Below are positions 5,137-32,576 of a DNA stretch of 64,000 nucleotides, piece by piece. The stretch is from Roseicyclus sp. GTDB lineage: Bacteria > Pseudomonadota > Alphaproteobacteria > Rhodobacterales > Rhodobacteraceae. Location of the stretch: NCBI GenBank assembly GCA_018401055.1, contig JAGYLB010000077.1, positions 1 to 64,000 on the forward strand, given 5' to 3'. The notes beneath the pieces are model-generated. The model did not search any database. It was not told the origin of the DNA and worked only from the letters and a program-made list of their open reading frames with translations. A program made the translations under genes and the position numbers. Every line of letters begins with the position of its first letter. Positions within the stretch are counted from its first letter, which is position 1.

Positions 5137-7151
5137 TCACAACAGCGACTTCACCTTGGCCGCCACGGCCTCGGCCGTGATGCCGAAATGCTTGTAGAGA
5201 TCGCCGCGGGCGCGGACGCCCCGAACCCATGCATGCCCACAAAGCCCGATTTCTCGCGGCGTCCCCGCTCGCCGAAGAGCCAACGGTCCCAGCCGAAACG
5301 GATCGCGGCCTCGACCGCCACGCGCACCGGGCCCGCGGGCAGGACGCGGCGGCGTGTGGCCTCGTCTTGCTCCTCGAAAATCTCCCAGCAGGGCATGGAC
5401 ACGACACGGGTGCCGATCCCCTCGGCCTCGAGAAGCGCGCGGGCCTCCATCGCGATGGCAACCTCTGAGCCTGTGGCCAGCAAGATCGCCTGCCGCTTGC
5501 CCGTCGCGTCGGCCAGCACATAGGCGCCTTGTGCAACCATGTTCTTGGCCTTGTGTTCGGTCCTGAGTGTCGGCAGGGCCTGACGGCTTAGCGCCAGTAC
5601 CGATGGCGTCGTTTTCTGCATCAACGCCACTTCCCAAGCCTCGGCAGTCTCAACGGCGTCGGCTGGGCGGATGACATTGAGGTTGGGCGTCGCGCGCATC
5701 ATCGCCAGATGCTCGACCGGTTGGTGGGTCGGGCCATCCTCGCCCAGACCGATGCTGTCATGGGTCATCACATAGGTCACGGGCAGCCCCATCAGAGAGG
5801 ACAGCCGCATCGCGGGCCGTGCGTAATCGGTGAAGACCATGAAGGTGCCGCCATAGGGCCGCACACCGCCATGCAGCGCCATGCCGTTCATCGCCGCCGC
5901 CATGCCGTGTTCGCGGATGCCGTAGTGGATGTGGCGCCCCTTGCGGTCCTCGGGCGTAAAGGTGCCCAGACCCGCAGTGTCGGTGTTGTTCGAGCCGGTC
6001 AGATCGGCCGAACCGCCCAGATGTTCGCCGAGGATCGGGTTGATCACCTCGAGCGCCATCTGGCTGGCCTGCCGCGTGGCCACCTTGGGGGCATTGTCGG
6101 AATGCTGCTTTTTCAGCGCCTTGATCGTGGCCGACAGCTTGTTTGGCAGTTCGCGGGCGAAGGCGCGGGTGAACTCGGCCTTCTTGCCGTCCGACAGCAG
6201 CGCGAATTGGGTTTCCCATTCCTGCCGCGCGGTGCGGCCTTTGGCGCCCACGCCTTCCCACCAGCTTTTCAGATCGGCGGGGATCTCGAACGGGCCGTGC
6301 GGCCAGCCATAGCCGTCTTTCGCGGCCTGCAGCTGCTTGCCATCGGTCAGCGCGCCATGGCCTTTGGCGGTATCCTGCGCGGCATGTCCCAAGGCGATAT
6401 GGGTCTTGCAGGCGATCATCGCGGGGCGGGGCGAGGATTTGGCCGCCGTCAGCGCGGCGTCGATGGCCACGGGGTCATGACCGTCGACCTCGAACACGTC
6501 CCAACCGCTGGCGGCAAAGCGCGCCTTCTGGTCGGTGCGGTCGGCGATGGAGACCTTGCCGTCGATGGTGATGCCATTGTCATCCCACATCACGATCAGA
6601 CGCGACAATTCCTGCCGGCCGGCGAGCGCGATGGCCTCCTGGCTGACGCCTTCCATCAGGCAGCCGTCGCCCGCGATGCAGTAGGTGTAATGGTCGATGA
6701 CCCGCTTTCCCCATTTGGCGCGCAGGAATTCCTCGGCCAAGGCAAAGCCCACGGCATTGGCGATGCCCTGACCCAAGGGGCCGGTCGTGGTCTCGATCCC
6801 CTGCGCGTGGCCGTATTCCGGGTGGCCTGCAGTGATCGCGCCCAGTTGGCGGAAGTTCTTCACCTGCTCCAGCGTCATGTCGGGCGAGCCGGTGAGGTAG
6901 AGCAGGGAATAAAGCAGCATGGACCCATGCCCCGCCGACAGAATCAACCGGTCGCGGTTGGGCCAGTCAGGCGCGGAGGCGTCAAAGCTGAGGTGATTGG
7001 CATAAAGAACGGTCGCCACGTCGGCCATGCCCATCGGCATGCCCGAATGGCCCGAATTTGCAGCCGCCACCGCATCGAGCGTCAGCGTGCGGATGCAGGC
7101 GGCGCGGCGCCAATGGTCGGGGTGGGCAGTGGCAAGCGCGGTCAGATCCAT
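5137..7151 (-). CDS. tkt: transketolase
   Basis: Thiamine-diphosphate enzyme that moves two-carbon ketol units between sugar phosphates in the pentose phosphate and Calvin pathways. Start ATG at 7151 ([18 protein letters not shown]) with AAGGA upstream. ThDP/Mg-binding residues lie in [18 protein letters not shown], the substrate region in [18 protein letters not shown], and the pyrimidine-binding part in [20 protein letters not shown]. About 671 residues, normal for the family. One G is missing near 5213 in a G/C run, so the last 26 codons (from [14 protein letters not shown] to KSLL) are in another frame. No Calvin-cycle neighbours are seen, so a general pentose phosphate role is likely. 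Confidence 0.96.
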
Positions 7152-10586: not shown

Positions 10587-11198
10587 TCAGGCGCGCAGAT
10601 GCGCCAGCACATCATGCGCCCCCAGATCCTCGTAGAGCGCGACGATGTCCGGCGCACTCATCCCGCCGTCTTGTTGCGCGGGAAAGAGCGGATGTTTTTC
10701 GTCCGTGATCCAGTAGACGGGCATGCCTCCGCCCCCCACGGGCACGATCACGCCCTTGGTCAGCACCGGCCCCGATGACGCCGGGATGCGGCAATAGAGC
10801 CAGCCGAACAGATCGCCCAGACGGTCGCCATCGCCGCGCCCTTGCGCCGAGCGGAAGCGCGCGAAATCTCCGATCGAGAGATTCGCCCAGACCCCCAGAA
10901 AGACATGCTCGTCCGTGCCGCGCACCGGGATCGGCAGATGGGCGCGCACCAACAAGTCGCGGCCGCGCCGCGCATAGCGTTCGGTGATGATGTCGCCCCC
11001 GCCGTCAAAGGCGCTGTCGGGTTGCGGGGCGGGCGGATGGGTCCAGCCGAAGGGGCGCAGCCGCACCGCATGGGCGGCATCCACCACTTCGTTGCAACAC
11101 GCGCAGCGATAGCCGGGCGCGGTCAGCCGCCGGGCCAGCTCATCCTCGGGGATCGGTTTCGGCCCCTTGCCCTTGTTGCGCCGGAACAGCTTGAGCAT
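10587..11198 (-). CDS. DUF2199 domain-containing protein
   Basis: 203-residue cytoplasmic protein with an N-terminal CACC zinc-type motif (YRCACCNE) followed by a region matching the uncharacterised DUF2199 domain (DLLVRAHLPIPVRGTDEHVF, then FLGVWANLSIGDFARF). Its ATG at 11198 overlaps the purF stop (ATGA), so translation is coupled to purF. The frame is intact. Function is unknown; the cysteine pairs suggest a bound metal. Confidence 0.8.
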   Translation of the reverse strand: MLKLFRRNKGKGPKPIPEDELARRLTAPGYRCACCNEVVDAAHAVRLRPFGWTHPPAPQPDSAFDGGGDIITERYARRGRDLLVRAHLPIPVRGTDEHVFLGVWANLSIGDFARFRSAQGRGDGDRLGDLFGWLYCRIPASSGPVLTKGVIVPVGGGGMPVYWITDEKHPLFPAQQDGGMSAPDIVALYEDLGAHDVLAHLRA

Positions 11199-12679
11199 CA
11201 CTCGGCCGGTTCGACGGCATCCGCCAGCTTGAACCCGCGCGCCATCTGATCGGTCGGGCGCACCGGGTAATCGCCCGAGAAACAGGCGTCGCAATAGGCG
11301 GGCTGGCGCGCGTCACGCCCGCCGGGCTGACCGACCGCGCGGTAGAGCCCATCGAGCGAGATGAAGCGCAGCGAGGCCACGCCCAGATGCACGCGCATCT
11401 GATCCTCGGTCATGGTGGCGGCCAGCAGCTTTTCACGCTCGGGCGTGTCGACGCCGTAAAAACAGGGCCATGCGGTCGGCGGAGAGGCGATGCGGAAATG
11501 CACCTCCGCTGCACCGGCATCGAGGATCATTTCCTTGATCTTGCGCGAGGTGGTCCCGCGCACAACGCTGTCGTCGACCAAGATCACCCGCTTGCCGCGA
11601 ATGAGCGCGCGGTTCACGTTCAGCTTCAGCCGCACGCCCATGTTGCGGATCTGCTCGGTCGGCTCGATGAAGGTGCGGCCCATGTACTGGTTGCGGATGA
11701 TCCCCATCGCATAGGGGATGCCGCTTTCCAGCGAATAGCCGATGGCAGCGGGCGTGCCGCTGTCGGGCACGGGGCAGACGAGGTCGGCGTCGACGGGCGC
11801 TTCCTTTGCCAGTTCGCGGCCGATCGCCTCGCGCGTTTCGTAGACCGATTTCGCGCCGATGATGCTGTCGGGACGCGAGAAATAGACATGCTCGAAGATG
11901 CAAAAGCGGGGGCTTTGCCGCTCGAAGGGCTTGAAGCTTTCGACCTTGTCGCCGGTGATCACCACCATCTCGCCCGGTTCGATCTCGCGCAGGTAATCCG
12001 CGCCGATGATGTCGAGCGCGCAGGTCTCCGAAGACAAGGCGTAGCCTTCGCCGACGCGGCCCAGCACGAGCGGCCGAACGCCCAAGGGGTCGCGCACGCC
12101 GATCAGCTTGGTGCGCGTCATCGCCACGATGGAAAATGCGCCTTCGACGCGGCGCAGCGCGTCCTTCATCCGCTCGGGGATCGTGCGTTGCAGCGAGCGG
12201 GCCATCAGGTGGATGATGCATTCGCTGTCGGAGGAGGATTGAAAGATCGAGCCACGCTCGATCAACTCGCGGCGCAGCGCATCGGCGTTCACGATGTTGC
12301 CGTTGTGGGCAATCGCGGCGCCGCCCATGGCGAACTCGCCAAAAAAGGGCTGCACGTCGCGGATCTGGGTCGCGCCCTTTGATCCGGCGGTGGAGTAGCG
12401 CACATGCCCGATGCCGATTTCGCCCGGCAGCGTATCCATGATGCTGGCCGAGGTGAAATTGTCTCGCACTAGGCCAAAGCGGCGCGCCGAGGAAAAGCCG
12501 TGTTCGGGTTCGTGCGTGACGATCCCGCCCGCCTCTTGCCCGCGATGCTGCAGCGCATGCAGACCCAGCGCGATGAAATTGGCCGCATCCGAGACGCCGA
12601 TCACGCCGAAAACGCCGCATTCCTCGCGCAGTTTGTCGTCGTCACTCGGGTCGAAAGGGTGACGGGGGAGGGCATCCAT
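11198..12679 (-). CDS. purF: amidophosphoribosyltransferase
   Basis: First committed enzyme of purine synthesis: it transfers the glutamine amide nitrogen to PRPP. 493 residues and intact. The N-terminal nucleophile Cys lies in REECGVFGVIG after a short propeptide, so maturation by cleavage is expected. The glutaminase part includes HVRYSTAGSKG and AHNGNIVN; the PRPP loop is VILVDDSVVRGTTSRK. The start at 12679 is preferred over several upstream Met codons because it has GGAG upstream and gives the usual propeptide length. The order radA, cvpA, purF on the same strand is usual in this group. Confidence 0.96.
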   Translation of the reverse strand: MDALPRHPFDPSDDDKLREECGVFGVIGVSDAANFIALGLHALQHRGQEAGGIVTHEPEHGFSSARRFGLVRDNFTSASIMDTLPGEIGIGHVRYSTAGSKGATQIRDVQPFFGEFAMGGAAIAHNGNIVNADALRRELIERGSIFQSSSDSECIIHLMARSLQRTIPERMKDALRRVEGAFSIVAMTRTKLIGVRDPLGVRPLVLGRVGEGYALSSETCALDIIGADYLREIEPGEMVVITGDKVESFKPFERQSPRFCIFEHVYFSRPDSIIGAKSVYETREAIGRELAKEAPVDADLVCPVPDSGTPAAIGYSLESGIPYAMGIIRNQYMGRTFIEPTEQIRNMGVRLKLNVNRALIRGKRVILVDDSVVRGTTSRKIKEMILDAGAAEVHFRIASPPTAWPCFYGVDTPEREKLLAATMTEDQMRVHLGVASLRFISLDGLYRAVGQPGGRDARQPAYCDACFSGDYPVRPTDQMARGFKLADAVEPAE

Positions 12680-28601: not shown

Positions 28602-28997
28602 ATGGGAACCGTGCCCTTGCTGAAGGACGAAGACCTGTCGCCCGAGGCGCAAGCGGTCTTTGCCGAGATCCGTGCCCTGAGGGGCACGGATTACGTCAAC
28701 AATTTCTGGCGCGCGATGGCGCATGATCCGGTCGGCCTGCGCGCGCTGTGGGATCGGCTCAAACTCGTGATGGCGCCGGGCGCGCTTGACCCGCTGGTCA
28801 AGGAGATGATCTATGTCGCGGTGTCCACGGCCAACGGTTGCGACTACTGCATCCACAGCCATACGGCGGCCGCCAAGGGCAAGGGCATGACGCCAACCCA
28901 GCACGCGGAACTGATGGCCGTGATCGGCATGGCGATGCAGACCAATGGTCTGGTGCAGGGCTTGGGCGTCGAGGTGGACGAGGTGTTCAAGGCGTGA
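28602..28997 (+). CDS. carboxymuconolactone decarboxylase family (AhpD-like) protein
   Basis: 131-residue, intact, all-helical protein. The redox motif NGCDYCIHSHTAAAK contains the CxxC-xxxH arrangement of AhpD-like peroxidase reductases in the carboxymuconolactone decarboxylase family. MGTVPLLKDEDLSPEAQAVF is the usual N-terminus of this subgroup. Eleven bases after the cyclase gene and overlapping the next gene's GTG start, so an operon of three. A diverged copy of its last 78 bases lies at 29710-29787. Confidence 0.88.
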   Translation: MGTVPLLKDEDLSPEAQAVFAEIRALRGTDYVNNFWRAMAHDPVGLRALWDRLKLVMAPGALDPLVKEMIYVAVSTANGCDYCIHSHTAAAKGKGMTPTQHAELMAVIGMAMQTNGLVQGLGVEVDEVFKA

Positions 28998-29530
28998 GCG
29001 GGTCCCGAGCCAAGACAGTCGATATCGTGCCCATCCGAAGCCCGGAGGATGTCGAGGCCGCCAAGGTGATGGTCATGGAACTGTTCGACGTCTTCTTCGA
29101 GCGGTATCCGGAAGAGATCCCGATGATCCGGAAATATATGGAAGATCAGGATATTGCCGGTCAACTGGACCGTTTTGTGGAGACGTTTGGCCCGCCGTTG
29201 GGCGAAGCCTTGATCGCGCGGGTCGATGGCGGTGCGGTGGGCATCGTCATGCTGACCGACAAGGGCGACGGCGTGACCGGGCGCCAATGCGAAATGAACA
29301 GGATGTATGTGCGCGCGTCGGCGCGTGGTCTGGGTGTCGGGCGCAAGCTTGGCCTCGCGATCCTGCAAGAGGCCCGCGAGTTGGGGTTTGCCGAGATGCG
29401 GCTGGACGGTGCCAAACGTCACGTCGAGGCGATCCCGCTCTATCAAAGCCTCGGCTTCGGTCCGGACCCGGCGCCCTCCATACATGCTGCGTCCGATCCG
29501 ATGATGTTTTCGATGCGGATCGCTCTGTGA
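28994..29530 (+). CDS. GNAT family N-acetyltransferase
   Basis: 178 residues. GTG start at 28994 overlaps the TGA of the AhpD-like gene. The acetyl-CoA site is in EMNRMYVRASARGLGVGRKL (pyrophosphate loop RGLGVGRK), with the beta-bulge region ALIARVDGGAVGIVML before it and the C-terminal LYQSLGF typical of GNAT motif B. Intact. The substrate is unknown. Last gene of the three-gene insert between ureB and ureC on the plus strand. Confidence 0.85.
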   Translation: MSGSRAKTVDIVPIRSPEDVEAAKVMVMELFDVFFERYPEEIPMIRKYMEDQDIAGQLDRFVETFGPPLGEALIARVDGGAVGIVMLTDKGDGVTGRQCEMNRMYVRASARGLGVGRKLGLAILQEARELGFAEMRLDGAKRHVEAIPLYQSLGFGPDPAPSIHAASDPMMFSMRIAL

Positions 29531-29634
29531 CCCATCCGCCTCGCAGATCCGAGACCTGGCTCGATCCGATCCGGCCTGCGCCTTCAAGGGCCGTTCTCCC
29601 GATGCTACGCGCATGACAGGAGACCGATTGCCAA

Positions 29635-29787
29635 ATGCCCACCCGCTTTCCCCGAAGCACCCATGCCGAAAGGTAGGGCGCCATCACCGGTGACCGCGTG
29701 CGGCTGGCCGTGATCGGCATTGCGATCCGGACCAACGGTCTGGTGCAGGGCTTGGGCGTCGAGGTGGACGAGGTGTTCCGCGCCTGA
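29635..29787 (+). pseudogene. chimeric scar: ureC 5' remnant joined to AhpD-like 3' copy
   Basis: Bases 29635-29709 match the start of ureC (30813 onward): ATGCCCACCCGC, then ACCxATGCCGA, then CACCGGxGACCGCGT and GGCTGGCC, but with substitutions and an in-frame TAG after 13 codons. Bases 29710-29787 match the last 78 bases of the AhpD-like gene (28920-28997) with about eight differences and the same TGA. The junction falls in TGGCCG, present in both parents. It cannot encode a functional product. This is the footprint of an old rearrangement in the urease region. Confidence 0.85.
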
Positions 29788-29789
29788 AT

Positions 29790-30569
29790 TCAGGCGGCGG
29801 CCTCGGCCTCGGGCAGGGTCAGGCGGTAGCCCGTGCCGTAGAGCGTTTCGATGGCGTCGAAGTCGGGGTCGATGTCGCGCATCTTGCGGCGCAGGCGCTT
29901 GACGTGGCTGTCGACGGTGCGGTCGAGCACGAAAATGTCAGTGCCGTAAAGCCGGTCCATCAGGAAATCGCGCGTCCTGACATAGCCGGGCCGTTCGGCC
30001 AGCGTCTGCAGCAACCGGAACTCGGTCGCGGTCAGGTGCAGCGCCTCGCCCCGCCAGCTTGCCACCATGCGGTTGGTGTCAATCTCCAGCGGCGGGCAGG
30101 AGATCACGCTGTTACTCTTGTCGCTCTGCCCGGGGCCCGAGGCCCGCGCGCGCCGCGACAGCGCCCGGATGCGTTCCGCCAAAAGCTGCGGCGACCAGGG
30201 GCGGCGCACCACGGCATCGGCGCCCATGCGCAGACCGACGATTTCCTCGACCTCATCCTCGCTGTCGGTCAAGATCACCACCGGCAGGCTGCTGTGCTCG
30301 CGCAACCGGCGCAGCACGGCATAGGCATCCAAATCGTCCGTGCGCATGTCGAGCAGCGCGACCTCGGCCTTGCCGGCCATCAGGCCCGGCAAGGCGCTGT
30401 CCGGGCGCAGGTGCGAGGAGACGTCAAAGCCCCTGCGGCGCAGGTCGCGGTCGAGCGCCGACAGCGCGCGCGGATCGGAGTTGACGATGGCGATCTGCAC
30501 GCGCTGGGCATCGGGTGCGGCAGCAGGCCCGACAGGTTGTGCGACAGGATGGATTGTATCGATCTTCAC
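29790..30569 (-). CDS. OmpR/PhoB-type response regulator with an atypical receiver
   Basis: 259 residues. The receiver domain (about 25-140) has a phosphorylatable Asp in VALLDMRTDD and Thr in VVILTDSEDE, but the acidic pair near the N-terminus is replaced by the sequence AIVNSDPRAL and the conserved Lys before Pro is Arg (VVRRPWS). The C-terminal winged helix is standard (ALHLTATEFRLLQTLAERPG, then TVDSHVKRLRRKMRD, then ETLYGTGYRL). The GTG at 30569 is the likely start. It is the only minus-strand gene inside the urease cluster, divergent from ureC, with a 243-base shared promoter region. No kinase is adjacent. A role in urease control is possible from position only. Confidence 0.85.
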   Translation of the reverse strand: MKIDTIHPVAQPVGPAAAPDAQRVQIAIVNSDPRALSALDRDLRRRGFDVSSHLRPDSALPGLMAGKAEVALLDMRTDDLDAYAVLRRLREHSSLPVVILTDSEDEVEEIVGLRMGADAVVRRPWSPQLLAERIRALSRRARASGPGQSDKSNSVISCPPLEIDTNRMVASWRGEALHLTATEFRLLQTLAERPGYVRTRDFLMDRLYGTDIFVLDRTVDSHVKRLRRKMRDIDPDFDAIETLYGTGYRLTLPEAEAAA

Positions 30570-30812
30570 GGCGTGTAACCCCCACGGTTTCAAATGTGGG
30601 TAACGGCCGGGGTTGCGGGATTTTAGGCCGCGTGGCGAAAAATCGGCCGCAGGCATGGGCTGGCCAGTTTTGAAATCTGCCCGGAATTTGGGCATCTGCG
30701 CTGTGCCTCTGTGCGTTTTTCGGCCGGAACAGGGGGCGCGCGGCAATCTTGCATCGTCCCCGGCGGTCGGCCCGGCCAGCGTCAGGTCAAGTTCGCCAGC
30801 CAAGGACAAAGC

Positions 30813-32576
<1,764 letters not shown>

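Follow-up and report, generated by a model that had tools for sequence, protein, structure and literature searches.

A urease cluster of Roseicyclus sp. raises a simple question of gene order. An AhpD-like gene lies upstream of ureC, and between the two a short segment carries a ureC start followed by an AhpD-like gene end. How did the two ends come to be joined in this order? The DNA analysed, referred to here as the window, is a stretch of 64,000 nucleotides (contig JAGYLB010000077.1) with pieces that carry Pfam domains of ureA, ureB, ureD, ureE, ureF, ureG-type and ureC-type genes. The features are ordered AhpD-GNAT-[ureC 5′]/[AhpD 3′]-RR(-)-ureC, where RR is a response regulator gene. Hence, there are two gap contents in series (Table 1).

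Table 1. Features between the AhpD-like gene and ureC in the window, with the evidence for each.
Feature	Position	Strand	Evidence
AhpD-like (carboxymuconolactone decarboxylase family) gene, left flank	28602..28997	+	PF02627, E 1.3e-18; 95% amino acid identity to R. mahoneyensis
42-bp tract identical to 29737-29778 (putative crossover site)	28947..28988	+	Sequences compared
GNAT acetyltransferase gene, overlaps AhpD stop; proposed inserted content	28994..29530	+	PF00583
Spacer, GNAT to ureC 5′	29531..29634	+	About the first 30 bp and the last 22 bp align with L010
Degraded 76-bp fragment of the ureC start, with a TAG in frame	29635..29710	+	Alignment, shuffle controls
TGGCCG microhomology at joint	29705..29710	+	Alignment, base-composition probability
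Displaced AhpD 3′ end, 78 bp	29710..29787	+	Alignment, collinearity, shuffle controls
Response regulator gene (RR), proposed resident slot content	29790..30572	-	PF00072, PF00486; same place in G001, G002, G378, G404
ureC proper, several frames	30813..32576	+	C-terminal part matches PF01979

Structure and authenticity of the chimeric segment

The first-pass annotation described a chimera of the ureC 5′ end and the AhpD-like 3′ end, joined illegitimately at a microhomology in an event that was not recent. Each of these points was borne out. The first part of the segment corresponds to the opening 76 bp of ureC in degraded form. It matches the ureC of the window (30813-30890) at 60 of 76 bases, with a single short gap, and has a TAG in frame at ureC codon 14. 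This similarity is far above chance (z 18.2 against 60 shuffles; reverse-strand control maximum z 2.4). The second part is a copy of the final 78 bp of the AhpD-like gene (28920-28997), with 70 of 78 bases identical overall and 65 of the first 69 (z 43 against 80 shuffles; reverse-strand control maximum z 1.4). The hexamer at the joint occurs in both parents; at this base composition, a match of at least 6 bp at a random joint has P ~0.0023. Eight changes in the ureC part and three in the AhpD part are found in the scar only, so the event is not recent.

The chimera was not seen at any of the 269 loci compared. Four of 246 BLAST pieces extend ~12 bp beyond the joint. Those from L040 and L054 fall within AhpD matches and, judging by position, those from L248 and L114 (one and the same place) are presumably AhpD matches too.

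The genes of the window change frame frequently, as might be seen if the segment were a sequencing or assembly chimera. The frame changes occur throughout and suggest a low-quality assembly. Away from the urease region, 31 open reading frames of R. mahoneyensis are well matched in the window (amino acid identity of 85% or more across 60% or more of the frame), and 9 of them are split between frames there; the pieces reach 99% identity to R. mahoneyensis. By reading, 6 of the 11 genes in the urease region are likewise split (ureD, ureB, cyclase, ureC, ureF and ureG); ureA, AhpD, GNAT, RR and ureE each keep to one frame. The automatic choice of open reading frames kept only one from the urease region, and is an unfair basis for comparing frame-break rates there. 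The urease frame breaks are probably sequence errors, though denser than elsewhere. Decay of the urease operon is a less probable alternative and was not supported as their explanation, since frame breaks also affect the open reading frames elsewhere and so are not urease-specific. Such errors do not account for the scar, where the differences are substitutions. Furthermore, both halves have changes seen in none of the compared sequences, the ureC part contains a stop, and similar stubs are present in other assemblies. A 6-bp overlap is also short for an assembly join. An artefact is thus extremely improbable, and the segment is a genuine recombination scar of a known kind. We infer that it has no function of its own and has decayed since its formation.

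In a search for plasmid relatives, 83 records matched; the best covers 22% of the query and none covers 80%.

Gene order and gap content among relatives

The usual order in relatives is ureD-ureA-ureB-(cyclase)-AhpD-gap-ureC-ureE-ureF-ureG, with a gap that varies in length and content. AhpD was upstream of ureC in 47 of the 47 loci holding both genes (80 loci examined). In a larger set AhpD was seen upstream in 51 of 110 ureC loci, many of these stretches being only ~4.5 kb long. The first-pass annotation had taken the chimera as a sign that an ancestor had ureC upstream of an AhpD-like gene, or had two copies of the urease region, and that a deletion then fused the two genes. Microhomology at the joint is frequent in deletions. 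However, the gene order needed was found in none of the 47 loci, and the ureC start was found once in 11 of 13 genus genomes, not at all in G406, and twice only in G407 (with at most 30 candidates scored per genome). The second start in G407 is a 50-bp stub, so the genus matches listed include no second full ureC start. Neither form of the ancestor was supported, and the deletion is very unlikely. A chimera of this sort is no guide to ancestral gene order.

Alternative contents occupy the gap in different relatives. RR precedes ureC on the minus strand in R. mahoneyensis, R. marinus, G378 and G404; no AhpD match was seen at the RR locus of G404. The R. mahoneyensis locus (L001), which among AhpD loci is the closest relative of the window, reads AhpD-RR(-)-ureC, and R. 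mahoneyensis lacks a close relative of GNAT. The order at L004 and L010 is AhpD-GNAT-cytochrome(-)-ureC, the third gene being for a cytochrome c (Pfam, on L004). A similar cytochrome c reading frame, with no close GNAT, is found at L005, L006, L007, L008 and L011. At L036, from Seohaeicola, GNAT lies between AhpD and ureC with nothing else. The window shows legibly how content between two conserved genes can be swapped and stacked among relatives.

The GNAT protein of the window has 90% amino acid identity to that of L010, 89% to L004 and 94% to P0001. Matches in R. mahoneyensis and R. marinus (G001 and G002) are weak only. A GNAT homologue (E 1e-20 or better) was found in 24 of 394 sampled genomes of the family. 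At 13 of 110 ureC loci a homologue lies upstream of ureC, and GNAT may therefore be old at this locus. The metagenome protein P0011 begins as GNAT and continues into apparent ureC sequence, partly out of frame; a urease Pfam domain is listed for it. This is perhaps a deletion that fused GNAT and ureC.

Origin of the scar

We consider, with moderate confidence, that the scar marks where an earlier insertion was closed by illegitimate joining, a foreign AhpD3′-GNAT-ureC5′ segment having been taken up by an RR-type locus. The donor would have been a GNAT-type relative, its DNA arriving as a linear or circularised piece, and the recipient an AhpD-RR-ureC locus. Homologous recombination in the AhpD 3′ end, within the 42-bp identical tract, would have replaced the end of the resident AhpD with one overlapping GNAT. 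The other end of the piece would have been joined to AhpD sequence via TGGCCG, leaving the old AhpD 3′ end downstream, and ureC proper would have stayed in place throughout. Two routes could lead to the same structure: homology-facilitated illegitimate recombination, and the single-crossover integration of a circle bearing the illegitimate joint. The ureC5′-AhpD3′ order would then arise because an AhpD3′...ureC5′ segment was duplicated or inserted, and no ancestor with ureC before AhpD is required. Gene transfer agent particles carry short linear DNA, and the gene transfer agent family PF13547 was found in five of six genomes tested (it was absent in G004). Hence, a gene transfer agent may have been the delivery route.

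Recombination of this type is already known. Homology-facilitated illegitimate recombination, and a single-crossover variant with partial gene duplication, are described for Escherichia coli (PMC3240628). Of 60 clones analysed there (56 by PCR; 14 sequenced), most carried a partial duplication of the homologous gene, 109-950 bp long. The proposed likeness is one homologous and one illegitimate end. The E. coli events, however, arose in laboratory plasmid conjugation, whereas that in the window is an old natural event, deduced from sequence, with 78 bp duplicated.

The 42-bp tract and an AhpD end that switches type are consistent with a homologous end. From 29705 to 30900 the window is collinear with R. 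mahoneyensis (91%); for the GNAT segment, collinearity is with L004 and L010 (86%). R. mahoneyensis aligns with the first 68 bp of the window AhpD end (97%), and also matches the final AhpD bases of the scar, which end in CGCGCC, and the sequence after them. Thus, the AhpD of the window is R. mahoneyensis-like up to its last bases and then takes the GNAT-overlapping form. Because R. mahoneyensis shares the last AhpD bases of the scar and the downstream sequence, a switch point lies inside the AhpD end. Loss by the reverse exchange, in R. mahoneyensis a deletion between its AhpD repeats, would be the exact inverse and yields the same pattern. The 6-bp joint marks the illegitimate end.

The main rival to insertion is a tandem duplication. 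In an AhpD-GNAT-ureC ancestor, the stretch bounded by the AhpD 3′ end and the ureC 5′ end would have been duplicated head to tail, with the scar as the novel joint. RR would later have replaced the second GNAT, and R. mahoneyensis and other RR-type loci would have lost the first copy by recombination between AhpD repeats. This makes the joint in one step, without an ancestor with ureC before AhpD, and the starting order does exist, as at L036. The two copies differ in content, one having GNAT and the other RR; later replacement could mask an original identity. The locus tree bears on the number of steps. The window and R. mahoneyensis are sisters (100/99), and both fall within a five-row group (85/94) with RR-type L002 and G378 and cytochrome-type L006, whose inner order is not resolved. 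GNAT was not seen in the slot of L002 or G378. The placement therefore implies a single gain, by the window lineage, or, for an old scar, two losses or more. Tandem duplication needs these losses and, in addition, the RR replacement. It also sits poorly with the ureC part of the scar, which is not nearest to the window's own ureC: differences per 76 bases were 16 from that copy, 13 from R. mahoneyensis and 11-12 from L003, L010, L004 and L005, although the margins in affinity are one or two bases. For the AhpD part, differences per 78 bases were 5 from R. mahoneyensis (the nearest), 8 from the window's own copy and 13-18 from the same four loci. We regard tandem duplication with later replacement as rather unlikely.

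For insertion, the inserted DNA should be foreign, and two patterns point modestly in this direction. First, nucleotide identity between the window and L010 is 87.7% for GNAT, compared with 74.0% for AhpD, 82.6% for ureA and 84.9% for ureC. For L036, GNAT identity is below that of AhpD (67.7% vs 75.3%), and L004 gives no GNAT excess (GNAT 86.8%, ureC 89.4%). The GNAT tree has weak resolution. Second, among 21 sequences, the ureC part of the scar has 3 sites out of 76, two of them in a single codon, that it shares only with ureC outside RR-type loci, and none shared only with the ureC of RR-type loci. Each pattern would modestly favour gain. A donor with the exact piece was not found among the compared loci. 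At L004 an AhpD 3′ remnant directly follows GNAT (z 5.8), and a ureC 5′ remnant is borderline (z 3.9). At L010, the other GNAT locus, there was no convincing AhpD remnant after GNAT.

The two halves differ in divergence from their own parents at p 0.077 with all bases; leaving out the last 9 AhpD bases, an exclusion chosen after seeing them, gave p 0.008. Against R. mahoneyensis, p is 0.046. Dating does not decide between a gain and an old scar. The three scar-only changes in the AhpD part are below the fourfold-site clock (P 0.048) and consistent with the intergenic rate (P 0.57).

Gene-end stubs and repeats at other urease loci

Short gene-end stubs can mark past insertions. We searched 110 distinct ureC loci for each locus's own ureC start upstream of ureC. 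Three stubs stood out: exact copies of bases 1-50 in G407 (z 50) and of bases 2-21 in L006 (z 8.5), and the decayed stub of the window (z 18). The stub of L004 (bases 13-48) is the borderline case noted above; the next two loci had z 3.5 and the reverse-strand control a maximum of 2.4. Hence, ureC 5′ stubs stand out at 4 of the 13 loci from the genus (the window plus 12 genomes; three stubs clear, L004 borderline) and at 0 of 97 others. Fisher's test gave p 1.2e-4, or 1.3e-3 without L004, with the cut below L004 set after the values were seen and the genus noticed before testing. At G407 and L006 the stub appears to retain the old upstream sequence, and ureC has a new one. In an equivalent search for AhpD 3′ stubs (46 loci) the window and L004 stood out, followed by L249 at z 3.5.

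We tentatively suggest that the AhpD-ureC gap of Roseicyclus urease clusters might be a recurrent cargo slot. Gap versions of relatives would enter as cassettes with their own AhpD and ureC ends, and displaced contents would stack in series, bounded by stubs (window, L004), much like type VI secretion system (T6SS) orphan modules. In Vibrio cholerae, displacement of T6SS effectors leaves orphan immunity arrays, and the authors suggest that recombination of this kind is responsible (PMC5361080). The systems are alike in having alternative contents in series and old gene ends pushed downstream by a new module. Unlike the V. cholerae arrays, the slot in the window is flanked by AhpD and ureC, no toxin or immunity genes were recognised, and there was no sign that remnants are kept for function. 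No urease-locus scars of this type were described in the literature searched, by titles and abstract openings; the place and recurrence are, to our knowledge, new.

A fixed insertion site in ureC, as for an integron or other site-specific attachment, was considered and is disfavoured by matched stubs that end at different bases (21, 48, 50 and 76-78), although decay could have shortened them.

In G407 (L154 turned, 5934-6470) the exact 50-bp repeat of the ureC start flanks an insert of ~486 bp. Target-site duplication was weighed as a reading of this repeat and of the exact 20-bp repeat in L006. A separate repeat, ~135 bp long and bounded by inverted ends (GCGCCATCGACGGGCCGC ... GCGGCCCGTCGATGGCGC), is found in the pre-ureC gap of L004 (~11080-11215), L012, L021 and L154; a query containing it gave a match of some kind in 7 of 13 genus genomes.

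A gene for a 28-residue hydrophobic peptide (MSSxAFWLQ...GQxRGWW type) lies upstream of ureC, divergently on the opposite strand, at L006, L009, L024, L039, L061, L154 and L269. The peptide has no NCBIfam match. Of 394 family genomes, 5 were matched by a model built from five rows; among these, G009 and G128 appear to be rows of the model and G023 appears to be L039. Four of the matches are directly upstream of ureC by coordinates, and that in G337 by eye.
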